Part shown: in pieces, positions 8,895 to 55,255 of the stretch
Position numbering within the stretch: position 1 is the stretch's first letter
Layout of the letters: each line of letters starts with the position of its first letter
NCBI GenBank assembly: GCA_015178975.1
Contig: WHVD01000246.1
Span: forward strand, 32,662-96,661
Source of the DNA: Hysterangium stoloniferum
Lineage: Eukaryota > Basidiomycota > Agaricomycetes > Hysterangiales > Hysterangiaceae
Direction of reading: 5' to 3'
DNA length: 64,000 nt
Notes under the pieces: model-generated
Told to the model about the DNA's origin: nothing
Databases searched by the model: none
Seen by the model: the letters and a program-made list of their open reading frames with translations, nothing else
Translations under genes and position numbers: made by a program

Positions 8895-9806
8895 ATGGGT
8901 CCAAAACCAATGCCTTGCAGGCCAATCTCCAGTGGCGGGCCCTCCATGGGCTCCCTATATCAGGCTCCACTCACTGCTGCCCAAATCTTGGCACAGTGGG
9001 AGGAGCAGTGTCGACAAAGGGAGGAAGTGGAGAAAAAGGCCAAAGAGGCTGGGGAGGACTTGGAGAGGGAGTATCAGGTGGCACTGGTTTTGGAGAAGGA
9101 GGCTGAGGAGCAGAGAAAGAGAGATGAGGAGGAGGTGGTGTGGGTTGCTGTGGAGCAGGCCAAAACAGTCATGGAGAGAGCCATGGTTGCCATGGGGAAG
9201 GTAAGTCCCAAAAATTTCACATAGTAGTCCTTGCCGACTTTTAGTTTCTAGCACAAGGCAGTAGAAGTAGAGTCTGAGTCTGAGGGAGAGGCCGGGAGCC
9301 CTCAAAAGGTAAGTGGCAGGTCCACGGGAATGTCTGGGGACTCACCACTCTAACAGAAAACAAGGAAAATGGTTCCAGTCCACTTGGAGGTGAAGAATGA
9401 CCTGCAGTGCTCCAGTTATAATGACTGGAACACTGACTGTCATCCAAAGTCTGGGTGAGGACCAGGCTGTTGGCCATGTGTGCACCTCAAAGTGAGGTGC
9501 TCACTGGTTCACGAGTTCACAGGGTCCATGGCACAGGAAGCAGGTGGTTCAGACAGGCCTGGAGGCTTGGATGCAGTTTTGGGGTAGATAGCTGTGGGCA
9601 TAGAGGCCCAGAACCAGTTGCTTGAAGAGAGCAACCAGATGCAGGGGAATGTGGTGGAGATGCTCCAGGAACTCCATGGGGAGTTCTTGGTGGAGTATGG
9701 AAGGTATGTGTATGTAGAACTGCAGATTGGGAGTTCCAAGGGGCCCAGTGAGGATGTGGATGGGGTCCCCAAGGAGATGGCAGAACTCCACAAGGAGTAT
9801 GTATAA
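8895..9806 (+). pseudogene. Opposite-strand coiled-coil/Zn-cluster gene of Gyp-1
   Basis: Three exons read through in one frame: 8895-9200, 9252-9308 and 9357-9806, with GT-AG introns of 51 and 48 nt (donors GTAAGT). The product would be about 270 aa: an N-terminal Lys/Glu-rich coiled coil (about residues 35-80), an acidic Ser/Glu linker, a cysteine cluster C-x9-C-x9-C-x2-C-x6-C near residues 140-170, and an acidic C-terminal half. Two in-frame stops (9456 and 9585) replace Trp codons seen in the Gyp-3 copy. The second cysteine of the six-Cys pattern in the Gyp-2 copy is Tyr here. It lies opposite to and convergent with pol, between chromodomain and 3' LTR. A nucleic-acid-binding role is an inference from the Zn(II)2Cys6-like spacing. 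Confidence 0.7.
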
Positions 9807-10766
9807 TGAAAGTGGGCAGAAGCATAGCCCCATAAATGTAGATTGAAAGAACAAATAATAAAGTTTAATAATTTTTTTTTTTTTTTAAATAAAAACTTGA
9901 AACATAAAAGTCCATGGGGTGTCTGCTAAGACTTAAATAAACAAGTCAGAAACCTGTAAAAGCAAAGAAAGACATAGGGTGACAGGGGTGAATCCAATGT
10001 ATACACAGGGTCCATGGAATGCAGTTAGAGAGACAATAGTGGTCTGGGTTTGAGTGGGTAAGCTGTGTGAAAGTCAGTAACAATCTCCATGGCATTACTG
10101 AGTTCCAAGGCCAAAATTCATGATGTTTCCTCATCAGTGCCCTCGTCACCTGCCCACTTGACCAAGTAAAGCAGTTTAAAGTGCATGGACACTTATCTAT
10201 TTTTGAGTCTAAAATTTGTGAGATTTCAAACTCAGGTTCTCCATCAATAATGACTGGAGGGGGCAGAGATTGCATGTGATCTGGGATAGTGTTAGCAGTA
10301 CACAGTTCTAGTATAGAAACATGAAATACCAGGTGTACCGTGTGCATACTATCCAGAAGCTGTAGGGTCCATGAAACTGAACCTACTTGTGCTATTAACT
10401 CAAATGGACCTAAATATTTTTCAGTGAGTTTCTTTGATGGATGGGTAGTCTGGAAGAATTGAGCTTTGACAAAAACATGATCACCAATTTTGAAGTTAGG
10501 TGGTGGAATCTGGTTTCTGTCCACTGAACGTTGATATTGCTCTTGTGTGGATTTGATTGCCGTCTGGAGTTCCTTGTGGAGCTCGTGGAGGTCCATGATG
10601 AACTCTTGAGCACAAGCAGAGGTGAGATTTCATTCTGAATGTACCATAATATTTGAATTGTATCCTTTATTTGCAAAGAATGGGGAAACACCGGTAGTGG
10701 CCAAGGGTGCATTGTTGTAAGCAAATTCTGCAAGTGGTAACAGGGATTTCCAATTGTCCTGTTGAT

Positions 10767-11266
10767 TGACATGAATTGAATTTCCTTCAATTAAGTCAAA
10801 TAATAATCGTAATTTATTCTACTAAACCAAATACAGAAGCCTCATTTGACAAAGTATAGATTCACCCTGTCAATGAAGTGAGAGACTAATACCAGTCATG
10901 AAGGCTCACAGATGTTAATGTCGAAGAGATTCGACAATCACAAAAGATAAGATCGAGAGGTAGATTAATAATACAGATAACTAATATACAATGGAGAGAT
11001 TTTCTGACTGAAGTCCTTCACTCTTCTGATTGCCCTTTTATGCCTTTTTTCAGTAAACTATGATTAAACTATGACCTATGAATGAAATCATATATGATGT
11101 TGAAATGAGACAAGTCAAATGTAAGTCAAATGAATTCAAGGGTGTCAAAGATGTCAAATCAGAATTTGTGTCAAAGATAAATCAATGTGTCAAAGACGAG
11201 TTGAAGAGTTGTCGAAAGTTACCTTGAATATTTTGTGACAATGTTGTGACAGTGACAGTTGTGACA
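10767..11266 (-). repeat. Solo LTR-C in Gyp-1 integrase
   Basis: A 500-bp LTR, TGACATGAATT...GTGACA, with a perfect duplication TTGAT at 10762-10766 and 11267-11271. Removing it restores the integrase sequence seen at 56200-56230 in Gyp-3. Confidence 0.92.
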
Positions 11267-11847
11267 TTGATAGTTACAATATACGTGGAGGTATTGTTCC
11301 AATGTCTGATTGACATGTTCAGTTTGTCCATCACCTTCCAGGTGATGTCCAGATGTGAAGTGTAACTTCATGTCCAAGGATTTCCCCAGGGATCTAAAGA
11401 AGTTACATGGGATGGAACTCCATGCTTGGAAAATACATTGATAATAAAAAGTTCTGCTAACTGCACAGATATGATGGTATCATGTGTAGGGATGAAAATC
11501 CCTTGTTTTGAGAATCTGTCAACAATGACTAGAATGGCAGAAAAGCCTTCAGAGTCCAGTAGGTGTTCAATGAAATCCATAGAGATGGAATTCCATGGGT
11601 GTTCTGGTACTGGGAGTTGTTTCAAAAGGCCATATGGCTTGTGATGCTGTGATTTAGAGCATGGTCAAGTAATGCAAGATTTACAATAGTGCTTAATGAA
11701 TTCTCGGAGTCTGGGCCAAGTATATTCTCTTCTTATCATTGATAGAGTCTTGTTAAACCCAAAATGTCCCAAGAGTGGATGGTCATGTTTGTACTGGAGA
11801 ATCCTGAGGTGGAGGCCATTGGAGTCCAGTACATATATGTGATCATC

Positions 11848-12606
11848 TGTTAGGGCAACACTAACAAGGCTACCAAACACAAGATAAAACACAGAAATAT
11901 GAAGTGAAGAGGGGATAGCTCAATGACAGGGGATATCACACTTGTTTTAGTGGGATTCCCAAGAGATTGAAACTAAAGACTAGCTATGTACATGCCCCCT
12001 ATTTATACTATTTATTTAATATTTAATATTTATTAGAAACTTGAGAAAAATACTAAAAATGGATTGTATGCACCCTACAGTGCATAGCCATGCTTTCGGC
12101 ACTTATGTAAGCCCACCCGGTGCTGTGTAGATCCACATGGCATGCCAGCATTTGCATAGGCTCCGACTGCAGTTGCAGTGCTGATGCACCAGGAGGCCTC
12201 TATGGGCACACAGTGTGAAGCACTGTGTGTCTGTCGGAGCGTAGGCAGCGGCATTGGCCTTGAGTTGGTTGCTATCATCTGGCCGTGCTGATGCTGCGTT
12301 GCATCGTTATATCACTGCACAGCCATATTCAGGATGTAGGCAACACCATCATCATTATGTCAGCACTGTCGCTTGGTTGTGTCACCGCACTGTGCACGCA
12401 TATTGTGACTCTGCGATGCACGCACATTGTGAGTGCACAGTGCACGCATGTGTCACGATGGTGTGACTGCTTTCAATGGTGGTGGTGGCAGCGCAATTAC
12501 ATAATCATTCTCACATCGTGCCTGTCTGCTACATGTAGCTATAATTAAAATAAACTAAAATCCAAAATAAATGGCAAAAATATATATTATATATATTGCC
12601 CTGACA
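11848..12606. repeat. Solo LTR-I in Gyp-1 pol
   Basis: A 759-bp insertion with a perfect duplication TCATC (11843-11847 and 12607-12611). It has 11-bp inverted ends TGTTAGGGCAA / TTGCCCTGACA with one mismatch. The middle (about 12070-12500) is unusually GC-rich, with repeated GCAC/GTGC words. No coding domain is recognised. A solo LTR is the best reading because of the TG...CA ends and 5-bp duplication. Confidence 0.85.
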
Positions 12607-15910: not shown

Positions 15911-16482
15911 TAGATGGAGGTGCCATGGGTTCCGGGGAAGCCATGGGTGCCATAGGGATCACAGGGGCCAATGAGGCCACAGGTGCCAGGAAGGCCCTGG
16001 GTGCCATGGAGGCCATGTTGGATACAGTTATCTCAGGAGCTGCAGGTGTCCAGAAAGTTATACTGTTTGATACCCAGTCAATCAACAGATTGTATCGGGT
16101 AAGCCAGTTATGTCCTAGGACAACTGAGCAACTTGACTCTAACTGGGTCACATAGAAAGTGACCAACTGAGATGTTCCACACAGGAACTGGATGGATAAA
16201 TTGCAAGCTTGGGTGATAACCAAATTGCTTGTGCCATCAAAAAGTTGGAGTGGATTTATCAGATAAGTTGACAACAGATTTTTTGTATGAATTTTGTGTC
16301 TAAAAAACAATGAGTCAAAGAATCTATGAGTGCTGAAAAAATGAATTTCGGGATCATATTTGACATAAGTTTAATAAAAAATGAGTCAGAGTTCAAAACA
16401 GTGGATGTGTTGAGACAAGTAAGCTCATGAATGTGCAGAGAGGTAATGCAACCCCCAACCTGTGTGGAGTCTGTGGGGTTGC

Positions 16483-17130: not shown

Positions 17131-19598
17131 TGTCAGGAACCAGAAAGCCCGCTGGCCTCCGGGCCCCCGGACCCCGTCCTACATGCTCCCGACCCTCTAT
17201 ATTGTATAGTAACAACAGGAGTTCCCACAGGAGCCTGCATGTCAACTTGTTTATGCCTGACTCTCTGTACGCACCCCACCTGTCTGCACCTAACCCTCTG
17301 TGTCTCATACACCAGTCCTCGGACTCCACCGGACTCCGGACTCCACTTTATGTACACCCGACACTCTGTGTCTTATGTACCAGTCACCGGACTCCGACCG
17401 GACTCCTGGAACCACTCTAACAGAGCATAGAACCCTGCTCCTGTTATCTGTCTCTGCGTCTCACACACCAGTCATCAGAAAACCCACCGGACTCCACCGG
17501 ACCTCCTGCACATCAAGCCTGTCTATACCCGACACTATCTTGTGCACCAAGTCACCGGACTCTGACCGGACTTCCGGAACCCCTCTAACTGAGCCCCGCT
17601 CCAGTTATGGTTAAATGATGTGTCATGATTTGTTCTCCGCTCCTGTAATGTATTCAGGGGATTCTCTTAGATAGCTCAATATATGCTATAGTGTCACAGA
17701 GCTTCAACAATAAAACAAGCAAAGGTCCAGTAATTTAAATACTGATAGATTAATGAGCTGCGCTATTAAGCTTAAACAACTCAAATCAATGCTTATTTTG
17801 ATTATTGAAAGGTTCAATAGAACTGTGTATGACTCTTTTAGCAAATAAAAGAACTATTCCTTGAGAATAAGGGCTGGAAGCTGAATATATGCGCAGTAAC
17901 TTGGCTGAGACTTCATATAAGAGCTTCGGATTTTTGTATGCTTATTTGTAACTATTAATAGTTATTTAACAAGGTGTTAAATAATTTATTAATAGAGAAA
18001 ATAATGTGTATTGGATTATCTGAGTGCTTGTACTTGATTAATTCAATAAACTTAGGGCTAGGCCTTGAGTAATCTAGTATTGGCAGGGATTTCAGTAAGG
18101 ATACTTAGATACTTATTAGGTTTATTATCTAATTAATAAGCCTAAAGGGTAGCTGTGAGGCTGGGGAACTTAGATGATTAGCTAAGTCCAAGAGTTGCTG
18201 ACAAAGATTCAAGATGCTGCAAGTGTAGGTGCTTGCAGTGAGTGTATCAGACTAAGGCTATTATTGTCCTTAGGATGATGAGGTAAGCTTCTGTGCTGTA
18301 CTGTAAAATATGTGTGTGATAGATTGGTTTTATTGGAAACTTGGCCCTCCTTATATACATTTTGATAACTCAATGATTAGCTAACTATTTAGTTTATGAG
18401 GTCATTAGTTAGATCATAATGACCTCATATTCTACTCATTATTTACCCTTTGTTTATCATGTGATTCCCTTCTCTGAGACAAGGGTTCTAACCTCTTGCT
18501 TGAACAGGAAGGTTCAAGGCCGCGGTCCCGGGATGGAAGCAAACGATGAGTCGGCGGAATCTAATAATGACTCGGGTAGTCACATCCGTGACTTGTGTGA
18601 CATCCCGACACCGGACTGTGACTTGTGTGACATCTTGTAATTGTCACCTGCTGACAAATCATTCCCTCAATCTCAAATTTGAAGCACCGGGCATGAATGA
18701 TGACATAATGTGTTCCTGTGCTTCCACTGGAGGCTTATTTAATAAGTCCCGTGACTAGTGTTACAGTCACTTGTGTGACTAAATGCTAGTCACTAGTGTG
18801 AAAGCAAAGCAATGTGCCGGGCAGTAATAACTAAGTAAATAAAATATAAATAATTAGTTAAAAATTATAATAATTTAATTAAGTAATAATAGCATAATAT
18901 GAGTCCATATATGCTATTATTTATGCGAAGTTAAAAGGAATAAGGCCTATTTTTCACAATAAACATAATAAAAATACAATAAAAATTCGAGAAAATATTA
19001 AGTAATTCACAGAAAATTAAGAGAATATTATGAGATAAGGCTGATACCTCACAGCTCCCGTTCCGTTCTGTCCCTAATTCCCAGTTTAGTATTTACTTGT
19101 TTCGTTTTATGTTTAATAGTTCTGCCTCTCATTAATACCGGATTTGGTATTATTATATTTCACAGTCTATATAAGTCTGCTATATTCATGTACTTAGAAT
19201 ACAGTTTCAATCTCGAACTAGTTTTCCCCCGAACAAGTTTGACCCTTGAACAGTCTCTAGTCCTCTTGTCTGTCTGCACGCTCAATTCCCAGAACTCCCA
19301 CAGGAACTCCGGAATCTATATCTTCCTGTATGCATTCTGTCAGCTTGAAATATGGACACCCGAATGACTGTACGAGGGTGCAGCCTATAAGCTGAAGCCA
19401 AGTCCATCTCAGTCGTTCACCATACTTTCTGATAATTATTCTGATACCACCGTTCCTTGTACTAATATCCCCGGAACGTTCCCGGGACCTATTACCCGGG
19501 GACTCCATGGGACAATTCCCGGAAGCAAGTGTGTGTTCGGAATAGTCACCGGAAACCTCCGTGGGACTATCTGTGGAGTTTTGTTTGGGAACTTAACA
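17131..19598 (+). repeat. Solo LTR-A' nested in LTR-B
   Basis: TGTCAGGAAC...GAACTTAACA, with a perfect duplication GCAGG at 17126-17130 and 19599-19603. It is a diverged relative of LTR-A: it shares short GGACTCC-type repeats, a TATATAAG box near 19169 and the stem-loop box near 19375-19405. LTR-E interrupts it at 17644. Confidence 0.88.
17644..19053 (-). repeat. LTR-E, copy 1 (1.41 kb)
   Basis: TGTAATGTATT...GATACCTCACA, with a perfect duplication GCTCC at 17639-17643 and 19054-19058. It is nearly identical, in inverted orientation, to 27629-29037. The strand follows its TATATAAGG box. Short open frames inside it occur in both copies and look non-coding. Confidence 0.93.
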
Positions 19599-20069
19599 GC
19601 AGGTTCATATACAAGTATTCAGCATCTAGAAAATACTAACTAGGAGAAGAGCGGAAAACATTATTGACAAATAAGCTTGACTAGGAACAGGAAGGTTATG
19701 ATTAGTTCGGAGGCCGTGATTAACTGAGAGTGGGATTACGAGAAAAGGAAATAGTCCAAGGGTTACAAGTATATATAGGCATATGTGAAACATAGAGTAG
19801 AATAGATCATCATAATAAAAAGGACATATCAGAGTATAACCAGATAGTATGAGTATATTTTGACGGGGGCATAAATGGAGTTTGATCACCATGAAAGCAT
19901 ACGTCAGCATCAGGAGACTGACAGTTTCCAATGTGATGACTTGAGCGATAACTTGAAATCTCAATAGGTGGCAATATCCTCCGGGACCGTCAGGTTGTGA
20001 CACAGTCATAACAGTATCCCCCCATTTGGCTGAAATCCCAAGGAGGCCAAAAATCTAGATTCCATACAT

Positions 20070-20138
20070 AAAAAACATGTCAGGTACGGGTGGTGTGTCA
20101 AAACATCATGTGACTCAGTAAAAATTTACATATAAAAA
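20070..20138 (+). promoter_or_regulatory. Promoter of the opposite-strand gene in Gyp-2
   Basis: TATAAAAA at 20131-20138 lies 57 nt before the ATG at 20188. Upstream is a single GTGTGTCAAAACATCATGTGA block, a half version of the tandem repeat in Gyp-1 and Gyp-3. The shared layout in a different LTR family supports a genuine promoter. Confidence 0.5.
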
Positions 20139-20187
20139 TTCAAGGGGTGCTGGTGCTTGATTTTTTACTTCTCTTCCCTCAACCACC

Positions 20188-21173
20188 ATGACCATTGGCT
20201 CGGGGTCAAAGCCCTTCCCGGTTCAGTTAATGGTCGCTCCCATGTCGGCTCCGAGTGGACCATCAAATGCTCAAGAGCATTGACATCTTCTTGAGGAGAG
20301 AAGGAAAGTGTGTGAGGAGAAGGAGCATAAGGAGAAAGAGGAGCTGGCAGCTATAGAGGTGGAGGAGAAGAAACTGGCAGCAGAAGAGGCTGCGCACAAG
20401 CACTGGGATGTGGTGCTTGCGAAGAAAAAACAGTGGGAGGCCGATCGGGCATGAGAGGAGGAGGCGAAGAAGAAGCGGGAGGGTAAAGTAAGTCAGATTC
20501 CCTTTTCTTTTGTGAATTTTGCTGACTTTTTCCACAGTGCAAGGCAGCGATGCCTTCAGAGTCCAATGACAAGGAGGACAAGGAGGGTGAGGAGGGTGTA
20601 CTGGGGCTGTCAAGCCAAGGTGGGTTCGAGTTCCTTAATTTTATAAATTCTTTTTGATTATAGAAACAAAAACAGGCCCCCAAGGTGGGGCCCAAAAATG
20701 ACCCAAAGTGCAACTGGTGCACTAAATGGGGTTGGACTTGCCATCCATGGGCAAGTGGTCAGGGCCACACCTGTCAAGAGTGCACCAACCAAAAGCTTGG
20801 GTGCATATTCCCAGATGCCGATGGGAACGGGTCCTACCAAGAATGGCAGGCCGATGCATTAGAGGAGCAAAATTGCCTCATGCACACCTATTTCTTGGAG
20901 ATGACTCGGTTCTGATTCAAGACACTGTGACAACAAGGTCTGATGACCGAACAACTGCAACTTTTGGACGTGGGGCTGGAGAAACAAACCAGCACCATAG
21001 AGTCTCTTGGGGAGCAACTCAAGCAGTATTTAGAAGTATCAAGTTGCGATGGAGTTGGGCCTGGAGTTGGGGTATTGGAAAAGGTCAGTGAGGAGGTGTC
21101 AGTGGTCATTGGTGAGGGAGAAGGTTTGGAGGCCAGAGAAGAAGGAGAGGTTGTAGAGGAAACCTTTAGGTAG
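20188..21173 (+). pseudogene. Opposite-strand coiled-coil/Zn(II)2Cys6-like gene of Gyp-2
   Basis: Exon 1 is 20188-20487, followed by a GTAAGT...CAG intron of 50 nt, exon 2 from 20538 to about 20619, a second intron, and a last exon from 20664. The N-terminus is a Glu/Lys/Ala-rich coiled coil (about 20280-20480). The last exon has C-x2-C-x6-C-x10-C-x2-C-x6-C (about 20709-20802), which fits the fungal Zn(II)2Cys6 spacing, then a helical acidic tail ending EETFR. Stops at 20281, 20452, 20913 and 20931 are all TGA and can be explained as CGA-to-TGA. It lies between 3' LTR and pol on the opposite strand, as in Gyp-1 and Gyp-3. The donor of intron 2 leaves the frame one base out, so that boundary is uncertain. 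Confidence 0.68.
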
Positions 21174-21951: not shown

Positions 21952-21976
21952 GTGCCCCCCAGTTCGAAGGGATGTG

Positions 21977-26509: not shown

Positions 26510-29472
26510 CCTTGTATGCCCTCAGAAGTGCCAGAGTGTTTCTGAGATTAGCACCGTTTAACCACGAATCCTCTTCAGGTCCATAACCTTTCCAGCACAC
26601 CCTAAATAGCAGACAGTTTCACTGTTTTCGATGTCCAACAATAGCTTCGACCTCATATTCTTCATGATCTGGTTTCAACTCTCTTAGGTTCTCGAGTTGG
26701 GGTCTTGGACCGAGGTTGGGAGGAGAGGGTTGGTATTTCCGTAGATGGTCCCGGTTAATGACTGGATGCATCAAATACTCTGGGGGAATCTTAAGCCTAA
26801 ACCTTGAGGGTTCAGTTTCTCCAGGACCTTGAACGGTCCAATCTGTCTTTGTATTAGTTTCTTCCCAGTTCCCTTGGCTTCCACCAGTTCGAGGGAGTGG
26901 GGGTTCACCAATACGAGGTCTCCCTCAGAGATGTCTTCTACAGGTCTTTGCTTCTTGTTATACACTTGTGCTTGAATTTCTTGGGCTTGAGCAATTGAAT
27001 CCCATGCCATCTGTCGATGATTTTCCAGTTCGAGAATCCATTGGTCGGCCATAGGGCTGTCTGATAGTTCTCTAGGGACTAGGGGTTCGTCACCTCCTAG
27101 AACTCGAGACATTCCTCTCGGAAGGTATCCCATTAATAGGAAGGCTGGAGCGTAGTTCGTGGAACTGTGAACAGTTGAGTTGTATGTGTGGACAACCACC
27201 TCAATCCATTGGGACCAGCTCTCCCTAGTGGAAGCACAATAGGCTCGAAGCATCTGTTCTATGGTCACATTCATATTCTCTGTTTGTCCATCCATCTGGG
27301 GATGGTGAGCTGAAGATACCATGAGGGTGGTACCATAAATCTTACAGACTTCCCACCAGAACCTGCAGGTCCATCTCTTGTCCCGATCACAGATTATTCG
27401 AGAGGGCAGTCTGAAGGGGCTGGCTACCTGTTTGACAAATATTCATGCAAATCCTTCTGCCGTAAGGTTCAAGAAAGTAGGTATTGAAATAGCGAAGCGA
27501 GTCAATTTATCAACAGTGACAAAGACTGCGGAATACACATCCTTTCCTGAGTCAGGTAGTCCAGTGATCAAGTCCATAGAAACTACTTTGAAAGGCCTAA
27601 AAGGTATGTCAGCAGGTCTGAGGGCTCCTGTGAGGTATTAGCCTTATCTCATAATATTCTCTTAATTTTCTGTGAATTACTTAATATTTTCTCGAATTTT
27701 TATTGTATTTTTATTATGTTTATTGTGAAAAATAGGCCTTATTCCTTTTAACTTCGCATAAATAATAGCATATATGGACTCATATTATGCTATTATTACT
27801 TAATTAAATTATTATAATTTTTAACTAATTATTTATATTTTATTTACTTAGTTATTACTGCCCGGCACATTGCTTTGCTTTCACACTAGTGACTAGCATT
27901 TAGTCACACAAGTGACTGTAACACTAGTCACGGGACTTATTAAATAAGCCTCCAGTGGAAGCACAGGAACACATTATGTCATCATTCATGCCCGGTGCTT
28001 CAAATTTGAGATTGAGGGAATGATTTGTCAGCAGGTGACAATTACAAGATGTCACACAAGTCACAGTCCGGTGTCGGGATGTCACACAAGTCACGGATGT
28101 GACTACCCGAGTCATTATTAGATTCCGCCGACTCATCGTTTGCTTCCATCCCGGGACCGCGGCCTTGAACCTTCCTGTTCAAGCAAGAGGTTAGAACCCT
28201 TGTCTCAGAGAAGGGAATCACATGATAAACAAAGGGTAAATAATGAGTAGAATATGAGGTCATTATGATCTAACTAATGACCTCATAAACTAAATAGTTA
28301 GCTAATCATTGAGTTATCAAAATGTATATAAGGAGGGCCAAGTTTCCAATAAAACCAATCTATATCTCACACATTTTACAGTACAGCACAGAAGCTTACC
28401 TCATCATCCTAAGGACAATAATAGCCTTAGTCTGATACACTCACTGCAAGCACCTACACTTGCAGCATCTTGAATCTTTGTCAGCAACTCTTGGACTTAG
28501 CTAATCATCTAAGTTCCCCAGCCTCACAGCTACCCTTTAGGCTTATTAATTAGATAATAAACCTAATAAGTATCTAAGTATCCTTACTGAAATCCCTGCC
28601 AATACTAGATTACTCAAGGCCCAGCCCTAAGTTTATTGAATTAATCAAGTACAAGCACTCAGATAATCCAATACATATTATTTTCTCTATTAATAAATTA
28701 TTTAACACCTTGTTAAATAACTATTAATAGTTATAAATAAGCATACAAGAATCCGAAGCTCTTATATCAAGTCTCTGCCAAGTTACTGCGCATATATTCA
28801 GCTTCCAGCCCCTATTCTCAAGGAATAGTTCTTTTATTGCTAAAAGAGTCATACACAGTTCTATTGAACCTTTCAATAATCAAAATAAGCATTGATTTGA
28901 GTTGTTTAAGCTTAATAGCGCAGCTCATTAATCTATCAGTATTTAAATTACTGGACCTTTGCTTGTTTTATTGTTGAAGCTCTGTGACACTATAGCATAT
29001 ATTGAGCTATCTAAGAGAATCCCCTGAATACATTACAGCTCCTTGATGAGCAGTGCGATCAACCTTGGTCTTTTGGCAAATGTCGCAGGTACACACGTAT
29101 GACACGCAATCTTGCAGCATTTTTGGCCAAAAGAACTGGTCTTTCATTAGCTTGAACAACTGCTGACCTCCGGCGTGTGCTCCCTCAAAAGGGTTATCAT
29201 GTACCAACTTTAAGATAGAGTTAGTCATGGTACCGGGTACACAGATTCGACTTTTCCAGTCTGAGTCACGAAAGTACAGGAGTCTGTTTGCTCCCACAAA
29301 GTAGTGAGAAGGAGTAACAACCACATTGGGTGAAGGGGTATCTAGGGCATAGAGATTCCTGAAAACGGGGTCTTTCGAGTAACCCTCTAGAAATTTCTTT
29401 ATGTATTCCTCCTCAATCCTGATTAGCAACTGAGGGTGATGCAATGCAAAGTCAGACTTGTCTTCCTGATTG
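26510..29472 (-). pseudogene. Tf2-like integrase and chromodomain, 5'-truncated
   Basis: Read right to left: a zinc-binding region with C-x2-C (CTCDICQK near 29060); an integrase core with MDLITGLP (near 27570), CDRDKRW (near 27380) and the catalytic Glu in GQTEN (near 27280); a conserved tail EGDLVLVNPH; and a chromodomain (YEVEAIVGHR, WKGYGPEEDSW) ending near 26510. This is a different clade from the LTR-A/B pol in this window. LTR-E interrupts it, and stops are present near the chromodomain. Upstream it joins Gyp-2 RNase H sequence directly at about 29472. It may belong to the same insertion as the D LTR at 21312. Confidence 0.8.
27629..29037 (+). repeat. LTR-E, copy 2 (1.41 kb)
   Basis: TGTGAGGTATT...ATACATTACA, with a perfect duplication GCTCC at 27624-27628 and 29038-29042, the same five bases as copy 1. 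A TATATAAGG box is at 28325-28333. Removing it restores the integrase frame (HQGA joined to LRPADIPF). Confidence 0.95.
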
Positions 29473-30596: not shown

Positions 30597-31971
30597 TGGA
30601 GGGTGTTTATAATTACTATAATCTCAAATATTTACTAATAAAAGTCTTATTTTGTTACGACCGTGTCGCAACCCTATCGGCCCCGAGGTTATCGCCACTT
30701 GTCAACGTTTCAAGTCGTCCCCTCGGAAACCATCGGCCCCGAAGCTGACGAATGCTTCGCGAAGATCAAACTCCATTTACGCCCACGTCAAATAACTCGT
30801 ATTGTCTGGTCAAACTTTGATACGTCCCCTTTATTATGTTGATCCGTTCAATCTTATGTTTCGCATATGTCTATCTATATTTGTAGTCCTCGAACCATTT
30901 CCTTTTATCGTAATTCTGCTCTCGGTTATCATCGGCCTCCGAACTAATCATAAACTTCCCGTTCCTAGTCAAGCTTATTGTTAATACCGTGTTCCGCCCT
31001 TCTCCCCATTAGTATTTTCCAGACGCCTGTTACTTGTATATGAACCCGCTGTAATTGTAGTTACTAGACAATCAGAATATCGACTCAGAATACCCTCATA
31101 CACCTGTATCAGTCTCATACTAAGACTTCCCCCATCCGCCTTCGCGTGCGCTCGCCCACTCCCGGCCCCGACCCCTTGGCCCGACGCTCGACTTGTCCTT
31201 CGATTCCGATCGGTATCACGCCGAAAGGTACTCACTAGGACTAGTCTTCGCCCGCCCGAAATTTAAGGACATCCTGCGGATATTTGCGAGGGCGCAGCCC
31301 ATAAGCTGAAGCCAAGTCCTTCCGATCGGTCCCTGTCGGCCACCGACATTAGTCAGTTTCCAGTTCTTAACATATTTTCACAAAACTCCATCTTTAAATA
31401 GTGATATCTATTTTGAAACAATTATATCATCAAAAAAGCAATCATCAGAAATAGTTCTCCATATTACATCTTATACAACCCATAGTTATTTAATAAATTC
31501 CATTGTATAATTATAATTTCCTTCCTTTTACAGATGCCTACTAATACTTTTATTAGTATTGTTTTTTAAAAGTTGTAATGTAGTTATTTCCATGTAAAAT
31601 ATGTAAAATATTATTGGAAATTTTTCATACCACAGCTGTCTTTATTAAGTAAAACTCCCTATATATTCTGGGTATGTTGAATCAAGTAGAAATCTGTTTA
31701 GATTAACAGATCTATTCCGAAGTAATACATATGCATGGAATGGACTATCTAAAAGCATCTATTTTTTAAAAGTATTAGTGTTTCAAACTACTAATTTTTT
31801 TTATTGTCTACTGGTGTCCAGAAAGATTCTTTAGTTTGTAATGTACAAGAGAGTTTAAAACCTTTTGAAAGTTTTAAAAACCAAATTATGTTTGAATCAC
31901 ATCCCAGATGTTTAAATGACCTTTAGAGTATATTAGAATTTGGTATACTTAATAGTTTTCAGATATCCTCC
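30597..31971. mobile_element. Non-autonomous TIR element at a TA, in Gyp-2 RT
   Basis: TA dinucleotides at 30595-30596 and 31972-31973 flank it. Ends are GGAGGGTGTTTATAATTACT and the inverse of GGAGGATATCTGAAAACTAT, an imperfect inverted repeat. About 655 bp remain after removing the LTR-B inside it. It is very AT-rich and has no transposase frame. The assignment to a TA-targeting DNA transposon is an inference. Confidence 0.6.
30653..31372 (+). repeat. Solo LTR-B
   Basis: 720 bp, TGTTACGACC...TTCTTAACA, with a perfect duplication TATTT (30648-30652 and 31373-31377). It lies inside the TIR element. Confidence 0.95.
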
Positions 31972-42134: not shown

Positions 42135-42139
42135 GTAGC

Positions 42140-43732: not shown

Positions 43733-44943
43733 TCACAACTCTAGGGCGAAGCCTCCAAAGTCGAGGAACGCCTCCTCTAGGGCGAGTTTGCGAACGACAA
43801 GAGCTTCGACAATAAGACGGGGTTCGTGTGCTGTGATAGGTTGGTCTGAGACGTCGGTGACTGTTATGATTGGCGCAGCAACATCTCCGGAGTCAACGCT
43901 CCCTTCAAGGGCAAGCGCTTCAAGTGTAGGGAGAAGAACTTGAGGGTCCGATACAGAGACACACGGAACAGGCGCATGAGTAGTGACTCGGACAACCTCC
44001 GTATCCAAGTCAAGGTCGAAAACGCCTTCCTCCACAGCTTGCCCGGCACCCACATCAGGCGCGAGCAATGCTTTCCGCCGCGCATCCCTTCTGGTGTCGC
44101 GTTTGACCCGTTTCTCCTCCGCGCGCAGGAGATCTTCGGCTTCAGTGCTCCGCTGTTGTCGGCGTGGCTTTGGATTGGCCTTGGGATGCGATCCGCGCTT
44201 GCTGGGTCGTGTTTGGTTTGTTGGGAGAGGCCGGGAGCGGAGCGGTCGGGGTTTATAGACAGACGCGATTTCGATATCGAGAGCGTGGTTGAAGTGTGTT
44301 TGGCGGGAGAGCGCGGAGAGCGCAGGCTCGCTGTCGCTTGGAGGAGTGTCGACAGAGTCGTCGTCTTCGGTTGCGCTTGTTTCCGTTGCGGTACTGGCGT
44401 TTGCGTCGAGCTCTGACTCGTGGCAGCCGGGCGTGCGTTCTGGGATTCCGAGGGCGAAGTGCATGGCACGACCGACTAGTGCGGCTGGAACTTCAATCTC
44501 TTTGACTATTATGACGGATGCGCCGATTTCTCCAGCCATCATCTCTAAAGTCTCTAGACTAGCTTCCAAGTCACGCCGCGAGAGTCCAATAAGCTGACCT
44601 GAGTCAGCGACACCCAACTCATAGTATGCTTGGCCTCCGCCCTCGAGCAACCGCCATTTCATTTGAGTAACGAGCCTTGTGAATCGCTCAGGAGATGGAT
44701 TTAGCAGCTTTAACTTGTATTCGACATTGCCCTATGGTCTGTGCGTCAGACGTAAAAGAGACACGCAAGCGAAATGAAGCGCACGTATTCGACCTCAGGG
44801 ACAAGCTTCGGAATAACTTCGGCCAACCTGGTCTTCATTGATATATCGAGCTCTTTATCCACCGGAGGAGGTGGAGTGCTCGCCATGAGGGAATCCCACG
44901 GACTGCCTACCCGTGGACTCTCTGACTCTGATTCTCCAAACAT
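43733..44943 (-). CDS. GTPBP1/2-like N-terminal domain protein (host gene)
   Basis: Two exons: 44943-44785 (53 codons, MFGESESESP...) and 44731-43733, joined over a 53-nt intron (GTGCGC...CATAG), give a 385-aa product. The join reads VPEVEY then GNVEYKLKLLNPSPERFTRL. Residues about 40-140 (RLAEVIPKLV; KWRLLEGGGQAYYELG; SLETLEMMAGEIGASVIIVKE) resemble the region before the GTPase domain in fungal GTPBP1/2-type proteins, but no GTPase motifs follow. The middle is acidic and Ser/Thr-rich with a basic Lys/Arg patch (about residues 230-270). The end EALVVRKLALEEAFLDFGGF is, as I recall, typical of basidiomycete members, so the protein looks complete. Its CpG-rich sequence contrasts with the decayed repeats around it. 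Function is unknown. Confidence 0.8.
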
Positions 44944-48900: not shown

Positions 48901-49133
48901 AGACCCACAAGTGTCATTATTACAGAACGGCTAAAACTTTAACACACTCCTTAGAATATGGATTCGGTAGTCGCGTGATACATACCCATTGCATACTCTG
49001 CAGTGCTACTGGCTTCAAAGGGCTGGGGCAGTCTGTCTCATAATGACCTCATCCACCATCATTAAAACATTGGACATTCAGGGGATTCAGGGGGGACTAA
49101 ACTGTACAGCCATGGGCAGTGGAAAGGGTCGTA

Positions 49134-49380
49134 GCGAGACACACCGACACCTAGGGAGTCATCTGACATCATATTATATTATATAAGTGATATTGGCTAA
49201 AAATGTTAACACAAATCCAGTGTTTTACCCAGTGAATAATCAGATATATCCCACAACATCCACCGAACACCACTCATCAAAAAATGCTCCCGATGAGGGT
49301 AGATGTACTGATGCATAAGAGCAGTGTTGTATTTGTTGCCGGCTCACTTGTCTCCTCACGAGGTTGTAAATCGAGGAGAT
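49134..49380 (+). repeat. Partial copy of the J-flanking repeat
   Basis: It matches 46370-46430 and then 46700-46870 in the same orientation, and the inverse of 3780-3905 (CACCGAACACCACTC, GATGAGGGTAGATGTA, GTCTCCTCACGAGG). Non-coding. Confidence 0.6.
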
Positions 49381-50046
49381 ATCTGAGTGCTTATTCTTGC
49401 TCACTAGGAGCTGTATTTAAATACATTTACTAGCTAGTTATAATCTTGAAGAGGAGAACAACAACAATTATTAGTTATTGTACTCTTCTTGTTCTACATA
49501 ACAGTCGCAGACAATTATGCGTCATTACCGAGTTGCTGACACAGCCGAATTGCTGTTCAACAGATACTTCTACTTTTTTAAGTGAAGAGGTTCTGAACAA
49601 TTTAGTGATATAATTTGATCACTGTGGCAGGGTCTATGGTGTCCCACTGTACATCAGACATATCTGAATTGAGAACCCAACTGTAGGCCTAACCTTTCGA
49701 GGTTATATACTTTGCCTTACTATGAGTGATACCTACATATGTCCTTCTTTTCTAAATTCAAATGCATTACTAATTTATTTTCCCTATGATGACTTCAATT
49801 TAATTGGTGCCATACTCCACTTTTATATATATATACCAGAATCTAGCACCTTTTAAATCGACTGCTTAGGATTCTGAGAACCTCATTGCCTGTAGAGCAG
49901 AAGTATGTCAGAGACACCTTCAGCCCATTATCCACCTTCTGTTGAGGATAGTGTTAACTTTTTTGTGAAAATATGACCAGACCTATAGAGGACAAGTGCA
50001 ATACTGTCTGAGTGATATTGTTGGTTATAAATGCATAGGGGGGTCA
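49381..50046. other. AT-rich stretch, no feature seen
   Basis: No open frame of interest, no LTR ends and no terminal repeats were found. It ends at the target site of the next LTR-B. Confidence 0.5.
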
Positions 50047-50768
50047 TGTTACGACCGTGTCGCAATCCTATCGGCCCCGAGGTTATCGCCACTTGTCAAC
50101 GTTTCAAGTCATTCTCTTGGAAACCATCGGCCCCGAAGCTGACAAATGTTTCGCGAAGATCAAACTCCATTTACGCCCACGTCAAATAACTCGTATTGTC
50201 TGGTCAAACTTTGATACGTCCCCTTTATTATGTTGATCCGTTCAATCTTATGTTTTCGCATATGTCTATCTATATTTGTAGTCCTCGAACCATTTCCTTT
50301 TACCGTAATCCCGCTCTCGGTTATCATCGGCCTCCGAACTAATCATAAACTTCCCGTTCCTAGTCAAGCTTATTGTTAACACCGTGTTCCGCCCTTCTCC
50401 CCATTAGTATTTTCCAGACGCCTGTTACTTGTATATGAACCCGCTGTAATTGTAGTTACTAGGCAATCAGAATATCGACTCAGAATACCCTCATACACCT
50501 GTATCAGTCTCATAACTAAGAATCCCCCCATCCGCCTTCGCGTGCGCTCGCCCACTCCCGGCCCCGACCCCTTGGCCCGACGCTCGACTTGTCCTTCGAT
50601 TCCGATCGGTATCACGCCGAAAGGTACTCACTAGGATTAGTCTTCGCCCACCCGAAATTTAAGGACAACCTACGGATATTTGCGAGGGCGCAGCATATAA
50701 GCTGAAGCCAAGTCCTTCCGATCGGTCCCCGTCGGCCACCGACATTAGTCAGTTTCCAGTTCTTAACA
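50047..50768 (+). repeat. Solo LTR-B
   Basis: 722 bp, with a perfect duplication GGTCA (50042-50046 and 50769-50773). It is almost identical to the copy at 4212-4933, 46 kb away in the same orientation. Confidence 0.96.
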
Positions 50769-50963
50769 GGTCACATGCGTAACTATGGGGATTATATACT
50801 AATAACAAGAGTGGTAATGAATGTGAGCATTAGTGCCCCCGGTCACTATATGACTCCGGCTGCTCAATTTACCCAAAAATCTAATGCACCTCCTTGAGTG
50901 AAGGAGTCGTGGTGTCCCTATCCTACTAGAAGGCAAAATCTATAGTACCATATTCTCCATCTG

Positions 50964-51710
50964 TGTTAAGAACTGAAAACTGACTAATGTCAGTAGGCTA
51001 ATGGGGACCGATCAGAAGGACTTGGCTTCAGCTTATATGCTGCGCCCTTGCAAAAATCCATTGGGTGTCCTTAAATTTTGGATGGGCAAAGACTAGTCCT
51101 AACAAGTACCTCTCAGTGAGTTACCGATTGGGACTGAAGGATAAGTCGAGTGTCGGGCCAAGGGGTCGGGAACCAAGAGTGGGTGAGTGCACGTGAAGGT
51201 GGAGAGTGGAATACTCAGTATGAGACTTCTAAAGATGTATGTGGGTATTCTGAGTCAATATTCTGATTGCCTAGTAACTACAACTACAGCAGGTTCATAT
51301 ACAAGTATTCGGCATCTAGAAAATACTAACTAAGGGAAGAGTGGAAAACATTATTGACAAATAAGCTTGACTAGGAATGGGAAGGTTACGATTAGTTCAG
51401 AGGCCATGAAATAACCCAGAGTGGGATTACGAGAAAAGGAAATAGTCCGAGGGTTACAAGTATATGTATATAGGCATATGTGAAACATAGAGTAGAGCGG
51501 ATCATCACAATAAAAAGGGGACATATCAGAGTATAACCAGATAGTACAAGTATATTTTGATGGGGGTGTAAATGGAGTTTGATTGCCGCGAAAGCATACG
51601 TCAGTGTCGGGAGACTGATGGTTTCCGATGCGATAACTTGAGCGATAACTTGAAACATTGATAGGTGGCAATATCTTTGGGGACCGTTGGGTTGCAACAC
51701 AGTCATAACA
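50964..51710 (-). repeat. Solo LTR-B
   Basis: 747 bp, TGTTAAGAACTG...GTCATAACA, with a perfect duplication ATCTG (50959-50963 and 51711-51715). The site overlaps the TG start of the LTR-A fragment at 51714, so it inserted exactly at that LTR edge. Confidence 0.93.
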
Positions 51711-51713
51711 ATC

Positions 51714-51810
51714 TGTTAAGAGTCATGCGTGGAGCTTATCAGAGGGTTTCCAGAGAAACCTGTGGGAAATCCAGTAGGACTTGGCTTCAGCTTATAGGCT
51801 GCACCCTCAC
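51714..51810 (-). repeat. LTR-A fragment
   Basis: It begins TGTTAAGAGTCATG and runs to the inverse stem-loop box (CTTCAGCTTATAGGCTG). LTR-E cuts it at 51811. The other half should lie beyond the window if the nesting is simple. Confidence 0.75.
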
Positions 51811-52496
51811 TGTGAGGTATCAGCTTTATCTCATAAAGTTCTCTTAATTTTCTTTGAATTATTTAATATTTTCTCAAATTTATTGTATTTTATTCTATTG
51901 TGAAATATAAGGCCTAGTTCCTTTTAACTTTGCATAATAATAGCATATACTGTATGAGTTCATATAATGCTATTATATCTTAGTTAATTTATTATAATTT
52001 TTAATTAATTATTTATATTTTATTTACTTAGTTATTGCTTTTCAGCACATTGTTTGCTCCAATGTGTGCATTTTTGGAGTCATGTGACCTATTAGATAAG
52101 CCTCCGACCTCAGGATATCATTCAGTCACAAATGTGACTGTAACAAGTCATTATTTGATTCTGCCGACTCAGCATTTGTTTCCATCCCAGGACTGCGGTC
52201 TTAAACCTTCATTTTCAAGCCAAAGGTTGGAACCCTTGTCTCAGAGAGGGGAATCACATGATAAATAAAGGGTAAAAAATAAGTAGAATATGAGGTCATT
52301 ATGACCTAAATAATGACCTCATAAAATAAATAAATAGTTAAATATTTAGTTATCAAAATGTATATAAGGAGTGCAAAGTTTCCAATAAAATCTTATCTCT
52401 CACATATTTTACTGCACAGCTCAGAAGCTTATCTCATCATCCTAAGGACAATAATAGCCTTAGTCTGATATACTTACTGCAAGCACCTACACTTGC
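51811..52496 (+). repeat. LTR-E, copy 3, left half
   Basis: It begins TGTGAGGTATC and follows the 27629 copy with many differences up to a TACACTTGC block. Gyp-3 interrupts it at 52497. It is older than the other two copies. The remaining ~560 bp are expected beyond Gyp-3 and Gyp-4, outside the window. Confidence 0.8.
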
Positions 52497-53511
52497 TGTT
52501 AGGGTACATACACGGCGGGTTTCTGGAGAAACCCATGGGATATCTGGTAGGACTTGGCTTCAGCTTATAGGCTGCACCCTCATGAGATCGTGTTGCCCAA
52601 TTTCAGACAGGTGGATGGGAATCCCGGGGAGTCTGGGTGGGGTTCATGGGTTGAGGGGTCTTAGGTTGGAGGTCCTGGGTCGAGAGGTCAGGAGTTGGGA
52701 TAAATAAGAGAGATAGATGCACCAGAGCCTGTAGGCTCCAACTAGCGTGAGTGGTGTAATTCAAGTAGGAGTTTAGAGTGGAAAATGTATTAGATTACTG
52801 GGGGGAATCTAAGCCGATTTTCTGACTGGATTGTATGTACAACATCTGCCAGACTATATAGACTGTGGAATGAATGACATACCAAATCCAGTAATGATGA
52901 AATGAAACTAGCAAAACATGAAATGAGAATAGTAAACACCAAATTTGGTGTTAGGAACAGGACAGAACAGGACAGAACAGAGCGGAGTCCAAATCGTGAC
53001 AAATCATAAACCATAATGGGAAATGGAGCAAGAGTGGAGTCCGAATTGTGACAGGTCATTTGACTAAAACAGGAACAGGGCTCTGTTAGAGGGATGGTGG
53101 GTTTTCCAAGTGGGGTCCATGTTAGAATTTGCAGGTTTGAAATATGCTTGACTCGGTTTGGGTAGATAGAACACGTTGCAAACGTATGAAGTGTAGAGTA
53201 CAAGTACCTAGTTTAAGTACCTACTACTGGTAATACTATACCCGGTTACCCAACAATCACATGCTACATTGTTCGTGAACCCAAAAAATCTAATAGTCCG
53301 GTGACTGATGTGTGGGACAGAGTTGGACATGGACAGGGATGGAGTCTGGTGGGTATTCCGGTGACTGATACACAATGTAACAAAGTTGAACGTAGACAAG
53401 TCTGATGTACGGAGTCCAGTGGGAATTCTGGTAAACTGACAATTGGTGTGTATAGGGTGTGGGTGCATATAAGTTAGTGCCTGGAGTCTGGCAGGAATTC
53501 CAGTTGTAACA
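52497..53511 (-). repeat. Gyp-3 3' LTR (LTR-A), with small insertion
   Basis: TGTTAGGGTAC...AGTTGTAACA. It is interrupted at 53120-53295. The self-primer inverse ATTTTCTGACT is present near 52816-52826. The polypurine tract AGGGAGGGTAC (minus strand) lies just outside at 53512-53522. Confidence 0.9.
53120..53295. repeat. Very small LTR-like insertion (176 bp)
   Basis: It begins TGTTAGAATT and ends CTAATA (a decayed CTAACA is likely), flanked by GTCCA and GTCCG, a duplication with one mismatch. It shares only its first eight bases with LTR-H. LTR identity is tentative. Confidence 0.5.
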
Positions 53512-53559
53512 GTACCCTCCCTTTATGCTGAAGTCCCAAAGAGGCTCTAGACCTCAATA

Positions 53560-53669
53560 AGGTTCTTGTCAGCTACACGCATGTGTCAAAAGTCATGTCG
53601 GTTACACATATGTGTCAAAGAATCATGTGATCTGGAAGGTAAGGTTCAGACGCGACGAGCCTATATAAA
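53560..53669 (+). promoter_or_regulatory. Promoter of the opposite-strand gene in Gyp-3
   Basis: Two tandem repeats contain ACACGCATGTGT (53576-53587) and the perfect palindrome ACACATATGTGT (53604-53615), each followed by TCATGT. Then comes TATATAAA at 53662-53669, 60 nt before the ATG. Spacing and order match Gyp-1. Confidence 0.65.
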
Positions 53670-53721
53670 AATTTGAAAAAATGAAAATTTCTTCTTCTTT
53701 GTTACCCCCATCTTGACAAGA

Positions 53722-55255
53722 ATGGGTCCAAAACCAATGCCAAGAAGACCTATGCTGACCACTGGGCCCTCCATGGGCACTCCATACCAGGTGCCACTCA
53801 GCGCGGTGCAAATACTGACGCAGCGAGAGGAACAGTGCCAACAACGTGAAGAGGTGGAAAAGGAGGTGAGGGAGGTCAAGGAGACCCTAGACAGGGAATA
53901 CCAGGCAGCCTTGGCCATGGAGGAAGAGGTGGAGAGGAAGAGGAAGAGAGATGAGGAGGAGGCTGCATGGGTGTGAAGAGTGGTGGAAGTTCTAACCATT
54001 CTATATATGAAGAATATCGACCGTTTAGGTATGACACCCCTCAGACTCCAACTCCACCTCTGTCACTTTGCACTGAAAATACAAGTCAGTTAAGTTTGAC
54101 AAGTTGAAGCATTGGGACTTACCTTTCCCATGGCAACAGCCTGGGCTTTTTCTGTGGCCACCCATTGTGAGAGGTACAGTGAAATATGCTCAGGAAATAT
54201 AGTCTGGATGAGCCCATACTATATTTCCATTATTATTTCTTCTTTCTCTCTATTTTATTATACACTTATATTTAGTTCAACGACCTATGTATGCAGTACA
54301 TTGACTCTTGTGGGCGCATACATGCCAGACTTATGTATTCTAGCACCCATAATTAGAACTCAGACACTTTTACCCTGCAACCACGACTTACCCAGACACC
54401 CAGTTAGTGTCCTGTAAGTTGTGATTGGGGTATCATCTCGACTGTCACAGATGGGCTTTAACTATCTACACAATCAGAGTTTCAAACTGTACCAGTCAAA
54501 ACTCCATCTATATCTCAATCCACGTGGACCACATCCACACTACTTTATTATCCGACTCTCTTGTTACTCTTTTCTACACTCGAGCAGTCATTCGGAATCG
54601 CACTTAACAGTCGATTCCCTTTATTCATTTTAGCTCTCTACTCTACTTTAGATAGCTACTTCACTCAATCATATTGAACTAAGTAGTCAATACATCTACG
54701 AGCTGGAGAGCCCCCAAAAGGTAAGTCTTGGGTCTGTGGGAAATCCAGGGAACTGACTATGATCAACAGAAAGCAAGGATGGTGGCACCAGTCCACCTAC
54801 TGATGTGGAACGACCCATGGTGTTCCAGTTTCAATGACCAGAACACGGAGTGTAATCAGAAGTCTGGGTGGGGACTGGGGTGCTACCAGTGCACACACCT
54901 CAAGGCGAGGTGCTCACTTGTCCACGAGCAACCCACGGGGTCTGGGGCATGGGATGTTAGTGGGACAGATGGGATGTCCAGGTTGGAAGATGTTTTGGGG
55001 TGGATTGCCAAGGGCATTGAGGCCCAGGACGAGTTGCTCCAAAAAAGCAACAAAGTTCAAATTGTGGTGGCGAATGAGCTCCATGGGCTCCACTTGGAGT
55101 TTTGGAAATTCCTCGTGGAGTTTGGCAGATACATATATGAGGAGCTGCAAGCTGGGAGTTCTGAGGATGCCAGGTCGGATGAGGACGGGGTGCCCGTGGA
55201 GGTAGCAGAGCTTTCTCAAGAGATGGCTGAGGTTGGGAAAAATATAGCCCCATAA
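53722..55255 (+). pseudogene. Opposite-strand coiled-coil/Zn-cluster gene of Gyp-3, with inversion
   Basis: Exon 1 runs from 53722 (MGPKPMPRRPML) with the coiled coil (QREEVEKEVREVKET...). It is cut at 53973 by LTR-D. The following gene segment (end of exon 1, a 50-nt GTAAGT...CAG intron, and the start of exon 2) lies inverted at about 54037-54165. After the LTR, exon 2 resumes at about 54701, and the last exon is open from 54767 to 55255. That exon carries C-x9-C-x9-C-x2-C-x6-C (about 54813-54927) with the Trp residues that became stops in Gyp-1, and an acidic tail. Disrupted, but the last exon is intact and informative. Confidence 0.68.
53974..54700 (-). repeat. LTR-D split by a small inversion
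   Basis: The first 63 bp or so (53974-54036) are in normal orientation; the rest (54166-54700) is inverted, with an inverted piece of the host gene between. Undoing one inversion of about 54037-54700 gives a single LTR-D of about 600 bp with CATGGGTG or GGGTG duplicated at both sides. This accounts for every junction. Confidence 0.72.

Follow-up and report, generated by a model that had tools for sequence, protein, structure and literature searches.

Three Ty3/gypsy retrotransposons (Gyp-1, Gyp-2 and Gyp-3) in a 64,000-nt stretch of the Hysterangium stoloniferum genome (the window, the far end of which is the end of a contig) carry, beside their 3' long terminal repeats (LTRs), antisense remnants of one three-exon gene. 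Following the gene through the 111.1-Mb, 554-contig assembly, we demonstrated at the level of sequence that it is a predicted three-exon unit with a TATA box of its own, that it occupies, in antisense orientation, the interval from chromodomain to 3' LTR, and that it is intact in young copies. We regard it as an accessory gene carried by the elements of two related chromovirus lineages. Its most likely role, proposed with moderate confidence, would be to encode an LTR-binding protein setting the level of element transcription.

Structure of the gene and its association with chromoviruses

The plan of the gene is common to the three window elements. A TATA box lies 53-60 nt upstream of the ATG, and two phase-0 GT-AG introns separate a Glu/Ala/Lys-rich, coiled-coil-like exon 1, a short acidic exon 2 and an exon 3 comprising a basic stretch, a cysteine cluster, a helix and an acidic tail. 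The gene occupies the + strand in Gyp-1, Gyp-2 and Gyp-3, and the pol of Gyp-1 and Gyp-3 adjoins it on the - strand. A preliminary description of the window had proposed such a gene, opposite in strand and next to the 3' LTR, in all three elements, and its coordinates, TATA distances and GT-AG introns were confirmed.

The first 60 loci analyzed were the best matches to exon 3 of the window copies and not a random sample; 30 were of the Gyp-2 kind (lineage and LTR type A) and 30 of the Gyp-3 kind (type B, shared by Gyp-1 and Gyp-3). In the Gyp-2 group, which counts Gyp-2 itself among its 30 loci, 17 loci had an exon 1 of 300 nt and 22 one divisible by three; for exon 2, 20 loci had 84 nt and 26 a length divisible by three (range 63-291 nt), and 14 loci had an exon 3 of 509 nt. 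The introns of these loci (48-61 and 18-63 nt) were multiples of three in 11 and 8 loci only, and GT..AG was retained in 28 of 30 for each of them. When the 30 loci of the Gyp-3 kind were taken together with Gyp-1, exon 1 measured 306 nt in 17/31 and exon 2 57 nt in 27/31, with GT..AG in 29/31 and 30/31 for the two introns. Individual loci showed expansions: the acidic exon 2 of L018 had grown to 291 nt through in-frame EED repeats and exon 1 of L005 to 508 nt through repeats. Five loci (L049, L050, L052, L053 and L054), situated on different, partly small contigs, had near-identical genes with the same exon 3 stop, which points to a defective copy that multiplied late or to duplication in the assembly.

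The reservation that the copies might share nothing beyond composition proved unfounded, as they could be aligned and the two gene families matched each other as proteins at 30-32% identity with common landmarks. The exon/intron length pattern, this interfamily protein alignment and the frame-specific ratios of nonsynonymous to synonymous substitution (dN/dS, see below) ruled out chance or composition as the source of the gene plan.

Of the 60 loci, 55 had a gypsy chromodomain on the other strand at a distance of no more than about 1.1 kb, a count that includes L026 with a weak chromodomain match about 1.1 kb away; the concern that homologues might lie mostly away from gypsy elements was thereby removed. 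The loci without an adjacent chromodomain were L001 (the window Gyp-2), L005, L008, L025 and L059. In five B copies, the LTR end was found 209-210 nt ahead of the ATG. The location between pol and the 3' LTR, antisense to gag-pol, is that of the antisense genes designated aORF-3R. Judged by its sequence context, the gene is a regular constituent of two chromovirus lineages that differ in their LTRs. Since both LTR lineages share its place, orientation and intron phases, the comparison points to a common ancestor that already had the gene, in agreement with one of the two origins offered in the preliminary description.

Database protein searches returned five relatives, all of them H. stoloniferum hypothetical proteins, and gave no support to the movement of the gene as a free host gene. 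No relative in any other mushroom was detected by these searches, which need shared 5-residue words and one of which scored only the best 7989 candidates. For the earlier suggestion that the gene may account for large protein families annotated in mushroom genomes, these five H. stoloniferum proteins are the matches obtained. A scan of viral contigs gave 246 pattern matches and 0 relatives. Among fungal genes, short introns of the GT-AG type and zinc-cluster products are typical, and these traits would also suit a host zinc-cluster gene captured recently and riding as a passenger. Such an origin is very improbable in view of the occurrence of the gene in two lineages with so diverged proteins, its low dN/dS and the lack of a recognized host homologue away from elements, the five database matches being H. 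stoloniferum hypothetical proteins.

Intact copies in young elements

A chromodomain search of the genome, in which the best 150 of 2038 candidates were scored, revealed 25 elements with open pol frames of at least 1000 aa, one of them holding an internal TGA. The gene accompanies 24 of these 25. The exon-3 motif, a match to which denotes presence of the gene and not its intactness, was found with zero mismatches a few hundred bases off on the other strand in 20 elements, and the gene was confirmed from the sequence in four more (L063, L064, L067 and L068). All eight further loci sampled at intervals from the chromodomain list, after leaving out rows already known to adjoin the gene, carried it in part or whole.

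A protein search for the Gyp-2 lineage (best 150 of 627 candidates scored) gave many candidates with an open exon 3, and the five copies L072-L076 were open throughout all three exons (5/5). Altogether, among 21 further copies read through, a number that leaves out L062, L065 and the 60 first-look loci, the gene was fully open in 12 (L061, L063, L066, L067, L069, L070, L084 and L072-L076). It was not open in L064, L068, L078-L083 and L085; the scan gave no in-frame gene model for L078, L081 and L083 and no start motif in L085. Young copies, which might have turned out to lack the gene, thus retain it intact.

L072 represents a complete insertion, with LTRs differing at 4/720 positions (99.4% identical) and a 5-bp target duplication, TTATG, at both ends. 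The hallmarks of a Ty3/gypsy chromovirus, i.e., an LTR pair with target duplication, gag, reverse transcriptase (RT) and chromodomain, were all found, with the parts coming from different copies: the gag of Gyp-4, a further element of the window, scored above the Pfam cut-off, the RT piece of Gyp-3 just below it (28.5 vs. 29.6 bits), and the chromodomain was recognized by similarity only. L066 was suspected of having a different LTR; instead, another insert lies within its LTR, the rest of which lay beyond the sequence examined.

Selection and decay

Pairwise dN/dS was calculated according to Nei and Gojobori, with in-frame stops dropped codon by codon. For 13 pairs of B copies it was 0.15-0.22 in 11 and 0.26 and 0.35 in two, the highest value being that of L066 vs. 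Gyp-1, and the bootstrap limits were <0.6. After removal of CpG-type changes, B pairs gave 0.18-0.24 (8 pairs). Five pairs of A copies gave 0.11-0.20, and the comparison of A with B was saturated. Wrong reading frames gave 0.87-2.5 except for frame -1 (0.23-0.34), which has third positions in common with the true frame. Many old copies contain a stop or two, so the ratios mix selected and neutral time. The dN/dS of young copies, which the preliminary description had proposed to determine, hence falls at 0.11-0.35 and is frame-specific, which demonstrates codon-level purifying selection on the predicted gene. Like aORF-3R genes, it is present in most copies (8/8 and 24/25, among the best-scoring 150 of 2038 chromodomain candidates) and conserved like the element's own proteins, with more divergence than pol (see below).

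These results also bear on the possibility that the antisense RNA, acting through double-stranded RNA or interference, would be the agent and the protein incidental. The TATA box ahead of the antisense gene in both lineages agrees with it, and such roles are discussed for plant antisense open reading frames (excerpts of PMC7264820). Codon-level purifying selection, its frame specificity and the conserved phase-0 introns already disfavour an RNA agent, and we regard it as improbable.

Old copies show a common mode of decay. The in-frame stops in exons 1 and 3 were TGA where other copies have CGA in 39/62 cases (A) and 38/50 cases (B). The mean CpG observed/expected ratio was 0.48 and 0.40 in old copies, and 0.76-1.05 (five A) and 0.64-0.97 (three B) in young copies. 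Altogether, the pattern demonstrates that the predicted gene decays largely via CpG transitions after insertion, and it would fit methylation-type decay.

The cysteine cluster, the LTR sites and the proposed role

The six-Cys motif C-x2-C-x6-C-x9/10-C-x2-C-x6-C was present in 13/13 of the copies chosen for their long pol frames or as young members of type A in which exon 3 was still there (L061, L063, L064, L066-L070 and L072-L076). Zn2Cys6 clusters have the spacing C-x2-C-x6-C-x5-12-C-x2-C-x6-8-C, and the motif agrees with that of the Zn(II)2Cys6 family (PF00172). The Cys pattern was itself the criterion by which all rows in alignment A3, and the majority in A4, were chosen, and their invariance is no evidence. 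Zn_clus was the family weakly matched by most members (7/8, 4/7 and 16/21 at E up to 1), with a best E of 0.0025 in one of 21 members, for which bits were not given. The first profile search of the PDB touched LEU3 at E 0.023, and later ones did not. AlphaFold placed a helix after the cluster in two models at a predicted local distance difference test (pLDDT) score of about 73-91, and a KKARK-like basic stretch precedes the cluster.

Self-comparison of the window gave no match between its type-A LTRs and its type-B LTRs. Nevertheless, a type-A LTR (722 nt) and the 853-nt LTR stretch of the B copy L061 contain six CGG-N2/3-CCG sites each. Dinucleotide-shuffled LTRs contained on average 0.86 (B) and 0.40 (A) sites, and 0/500 reached six. 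Within the window, A LTRs had 3.5 motifs per kb and B LTRs had 2.4, compared with 0.38 elsewhere; the LTR copies are related to one another and CpG-richer. These motifs may be sites of the kind bound by zinc-cluster dimers and are best treated as a lead, not proof.

Beyond the gene structure and selection demonstrated above, we infer every step of the working model, from transcription onward. A promoter of its own would drive transcription of the gene, and the spliced mRNA would be translated into a protein that would enter the nucleus via the KKARK-like stretch, dimerize through its helices and bind DNA with the six-Cys zinc cluster. Its presumed targets would be the repeated CGG-N2/3-CCG sites in the LTR of its own family, and binding would set the level of element transcription either by activation or by autorepression as copies accumulate.

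Several observations weigh against this interpretation. A fully open gene is absent from all 60 first-look loci and from Gyp-1. L062 (C2:325162-326900) has an open 1304-aa pol frame and lacks exon 2 and most of exon 3; it keeps exon 1, and comparison with L069 placed the loss between two copies of GCGGGAAAA. Because pol is open in L062 with most of the gene gone, the gene does not appear strictly needed in cis, which suggests that the antisense protein can act in trans or is dispensable. Only five of the eight later loci keep six Cys, L078 and L085 are without the first half of the cluster, and the open gene of L084 has Arg in place of the second Cys. The Pfam Zn_clus cut-off (21 bits) was never reached in the scores shown (best 13.7 bits), and 3/5 young exon-3 proteins scanned gave no Zn_clus match at all. 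Both AlphaFold models were poor across the cluster (pLDDT 37-51), and a Foldseek search with the second model found no fold match below E 6 (best E 6.6). The CGG-N2/3-CCG motif was picked by eye before counting, so the test is post hoc, and its controls were imperfect. The gene itself has five such motifs (3/500 shuffles reach five), the internal sequence of the young Gyp-4 has about 2 per kb, and the observed number exceeded the triplet-density expectation outside LTRs as well (20 vs. 4.4; LTR A, 19 vs. 1.9; LTR B, 13 vs. 2.5).

The protein therefore resembles Zn(II)2Cys6 proteins in its Cys spacing, basic residues, neighbouring helices and possible CGG/CCG sites in the LTRs, but differs from them in scoring below the Pfam cut-off, in having no fold support and in the coiled-coil-like exon ahead of the cluster. 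A zinc-cluster-like mode of working is plausible, while membership of the Zn2Cys6 family is unproven, and the putative protein is not established as a true Zn2Cys6 protein or as a regulator.

L065 has only the exon-3 end left. A sequence pattern for L062-type deletions had 9 occurrences; since L069 and L070, where the gene is whole, account for two of these, it cannot serve as a deletion counter. The pattern totals of 195 (gene) and 673 (chromodomain) yield no usable ratio because the mismatch limits act differently on decayed copies.

The basic stretch ahead of the cluster, the long helices and the occurrence of the gene in nearly all elements with long open pol frames would also be expected of a replication or integration helper, i.e., a nucleic-acid or chromatin binder that works alongside the chromodomain in cDNA transport or in choosing targets. 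However, a promoter of its own on the opposite strand would make stoichiometric packaging unlikely, and the repeated sites in both LTR types better fit transcription control. Such a helper function seems unlikely to us, and LTR binding is retained as the preferred role.

Divergence of the gene relative to its flanks

Thirteen B copies (L061, L063, L066, L067, L069, L070 and L078-L084), with four close pairs excluded beforehand, were compared region by region. The mean pairwise difference was 0.24 in exon 1, 0.17 in exon 2, 0.21 in exon 3 and 0.19-0.25 in the introns, as against 0.078 between the LTR end and the ATG, 0.155 in the spacer and 0.060 in the chromodomain. Exon 3 was more diverged than both flanks in 74/74 pairs, which are not independent. 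The gene diverged more than pol: dS was 1.09 in the gene vs. 0.11 in 71 pol codons for L061/L066 and 0.59 vs. 0.125 in 161 pol codons for L072/L076, with a weaker contrast for L072/L003 (0.99 vs. 0.44 in 53 pol codons). The LTR was also more diverged than the LTR-to-ATG stretch in the pairs compared.

The simplest reading of this island of divergence is that gene cassettes may have been exchanged by recombination between otherwise similar elements, the alternative being strong constraint on the flanks. The preliminary description had offered movement of the gene between lineages as the other possible origin, and this is partly right as well: the gene shows excess divergence over its flanks within each lineage, as if cassettes had been swapped. 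Extended further, each LTR family might possess its own specific zinc-cluster regulator with a matching operator array, mainly CGG-N3-CCG in LTR B and both CGG-N2-CCG and CGG-N3-CCG in LTR A. Swapping of regulator cassettes by recombination would then let an element acquire a new regulatory identity without losing its pol, as part of an immunity or compatibility system among retrotransposons. We put this forward as a speculation that is rather unlikely to be right in full.

The same island, with its signs of cassette exchange, might be expected if the protein acted in counter-defence, opposing host silencing (e.g., cytosine methylation) of its own family instead of working as an ordinary transcription factor. 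VANC factors of the Arabidopsis VANDAL transposons offer a counter-silencing analogue, and the heavy CpG decay of old copies indicates that methylation-like damage is a real threat. Yet an arms race usually raises dN/dS, which is low here (0.11-0.35), and no homology to an anti-silencing factor was present among the listed Pfam matches. A counter-defence role might be considered but is doubtful, and control of element transcription through the LTR remains our preferred interpretation.

Copies and other features in the window

The features belonging to the gene and its elements are as follows.

7949..8695, - strand: 3' LTR of Gyp-1, type B, limits approximate (self-BLAST and sequence)
8842..8848, + strand: TATA box of Gyp-1, TATATAA, 53 nt before the ATG (from the sequence; 59-60 nt before the ATG in five B copies)
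8895..9200, + strand: exon 1 of Gyp-1, coiled-coil-like, 306 nt, phase 0
9252..9308, + strand: exon 2 of Gyp-1, acidic, 57 nt
9357..9806, + strand: exon 3 of Gyp-1 with Cys cluster, helix and acidic tail
10037..10281, - strand: gypsy chromodomain and 3' end of pol of Gyp-1, on the strand opposite to the gene
19596..20020, - strand: fragment of the 3' LTR of Gyp-2, type A
20131..20137, + strand: TATA box of Gyp-2, 57 nt before the ATG
20188..20487, + strand: exon 1 of Gyp-2, 300 nt, two in-frame TGA
20538..20619, + strand: exon 2 of Gyp-2, 82 nt (84 nt in 20/30 aligned loci)
20664..21173, + strand: exon 3 of Gyp-2, two in-frame TGA
50046..50768, + strand: LTR of type A, 97% identical to the L072 LTR, with six CGG-N2/3-CCG sites
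52497..53514, - strand: 3' LTR of Gyp-3, type B
53722..53985, + strand: exon 1 of Gyp-3, truncated, TATA box 60 nt upstream
54006..54690, no strand assigned: disruption of Gyp-3, an inverted piece (end of exon 1, intron 1, start of exon 2) followed by an insert
54700..54720, + strand: exon 2 remnant of Gyp-3, 21 nt, with a GTAAGT donor
54770..55255, + strand: exon 3 of Gyp-3, second Cys replaced by Phe
55476..55679, - strand: chromodomain of Gyp-3, on the strand opposite to the gene
59395..60215, + strand: LTR of type B ahead of the Gyp-4 gag (60231-61544), with six CGG-N2/3-CCG sites listed

The gene is dead in all three window copies. In Gyp-1, where a polypyrimidine stretch beside the 3' LTR becomes a polypurine tract if read on the element strand, exon 3 has two in-frame stops and the second of six Cys is Tyr. 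The Gyp-2 gene has four in-frame stops in total and keeps six of six Cys (C-x2-C-x6-C-x10-C-x2-C-x6-C). Its TATA distance of 57 nt recurs in L072-L075, and the exact TATA motif of this kind was not found in L076. The insert of Gyp-3 at 54160-54564 matches window 1-401, inverted. The cysteine cluster ascribed earlier to all three copies is complete in Gyp-2, with the second Cys lost from Gyp-1 and Gyp-3. Conversely, the position between chromodomain/pol and the 3' LTR holds for Gyp-1 and Gyp-3 and not for Gyp-2, which has the LTR and no pol adjoining the gene, likeness to its relatives ending at about 21310.

The LTRs at 4211-4933, 30653-31372 and 50046-50768 are 97-99% identical to that of L072, from the young Gyp-2-lineage family, and apparently solo; recent activity of this family is apparently reflected in them. 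An inverted 1.4-kb pair (17643-19054 and 27628-29038, 99% identical) apparently consists of recent copies of another repeat. An open frame of 332 aa at 43733-44731 on the - strand, with no Pfam match at E up to 0.01, is perhaps a host gene exon.

Relation to known antisense genes and implications

Reports of antisense genes in LTR retrotransposons go back to the 1990s, and the function of these genes is open; the plant aORF-3R examples are gene23 of maize Grande, rice RIRE2 and Silene Retand (excerpts of PMC7264820 and PMC11963269). The H. stoloniferum gene would resemble Grande, which has its own promoter and a nuclear protein (excerpts of the same two papers), and, in predicted DNA binding, Retand, whose antisense proteins have a TRP28 domain thought to bind DNA (excerpts of PMC11963269). 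It differs from the plant genes in residing in a fungal chromovirus and in its three exons, conserved phase-0 introns and six-Cys cluster. Retand is a non-chromovirus, and the words 'intron' and 'zinc' were not found in that article (PMC11963269); TRP28 (PF04195) was absent among the Pfam matches listed for the H. stoloniferum gene.

A fungal parallel is Boty of Botrytis cinerea, likewise a chromodomain-bearing gypsy element, in which an additional antisense gene occurs (excerpts of PMC8365987, PMC7264820 and PMC4227169), named brtn in the first and last of these. Its host, however, is an ascomycete, and brtn is likened here by description, not by sequence. Zhao et al. (Virology, 2011) are said to have dealt with Boty elements carrying brtn. 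The words 'antisense' and 'opposite' were not found in the main text of a survey of fungal chromoviruses (PMC2864245). H. stoloniferum, a truffle-like basidiomycete, is ectomycorrhizal, and in the excerpts seen of the source for this (PMC7550596) it is named once and Gypsy abundance is treated in general terms only. Among the literature matches listed, judged by titles and the starts of abstracts, none described a zinc-cluster gene in a gypsy element. The antisense accessory gene is thus of a known kind, and a spliced, zinc-cluster-like member in basidiomycete chromoviruses was not found among the literature matches listed.

One consequence concerns annotation, since parts of this gene have been entered as 'hypothetical proteins' of Hysterangium in at least three cases (P0001-P0003). 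The other concerns the antisense genes as a class. In this fungal case, young copies are numerous and almost identical, a recognizable cysteine-cluster motif is present, selection at the codon level is strong, and the LTR of the element itself offers candidate target sites; because these coincide, the function of an antisense gene would become testable by one binding experiment.

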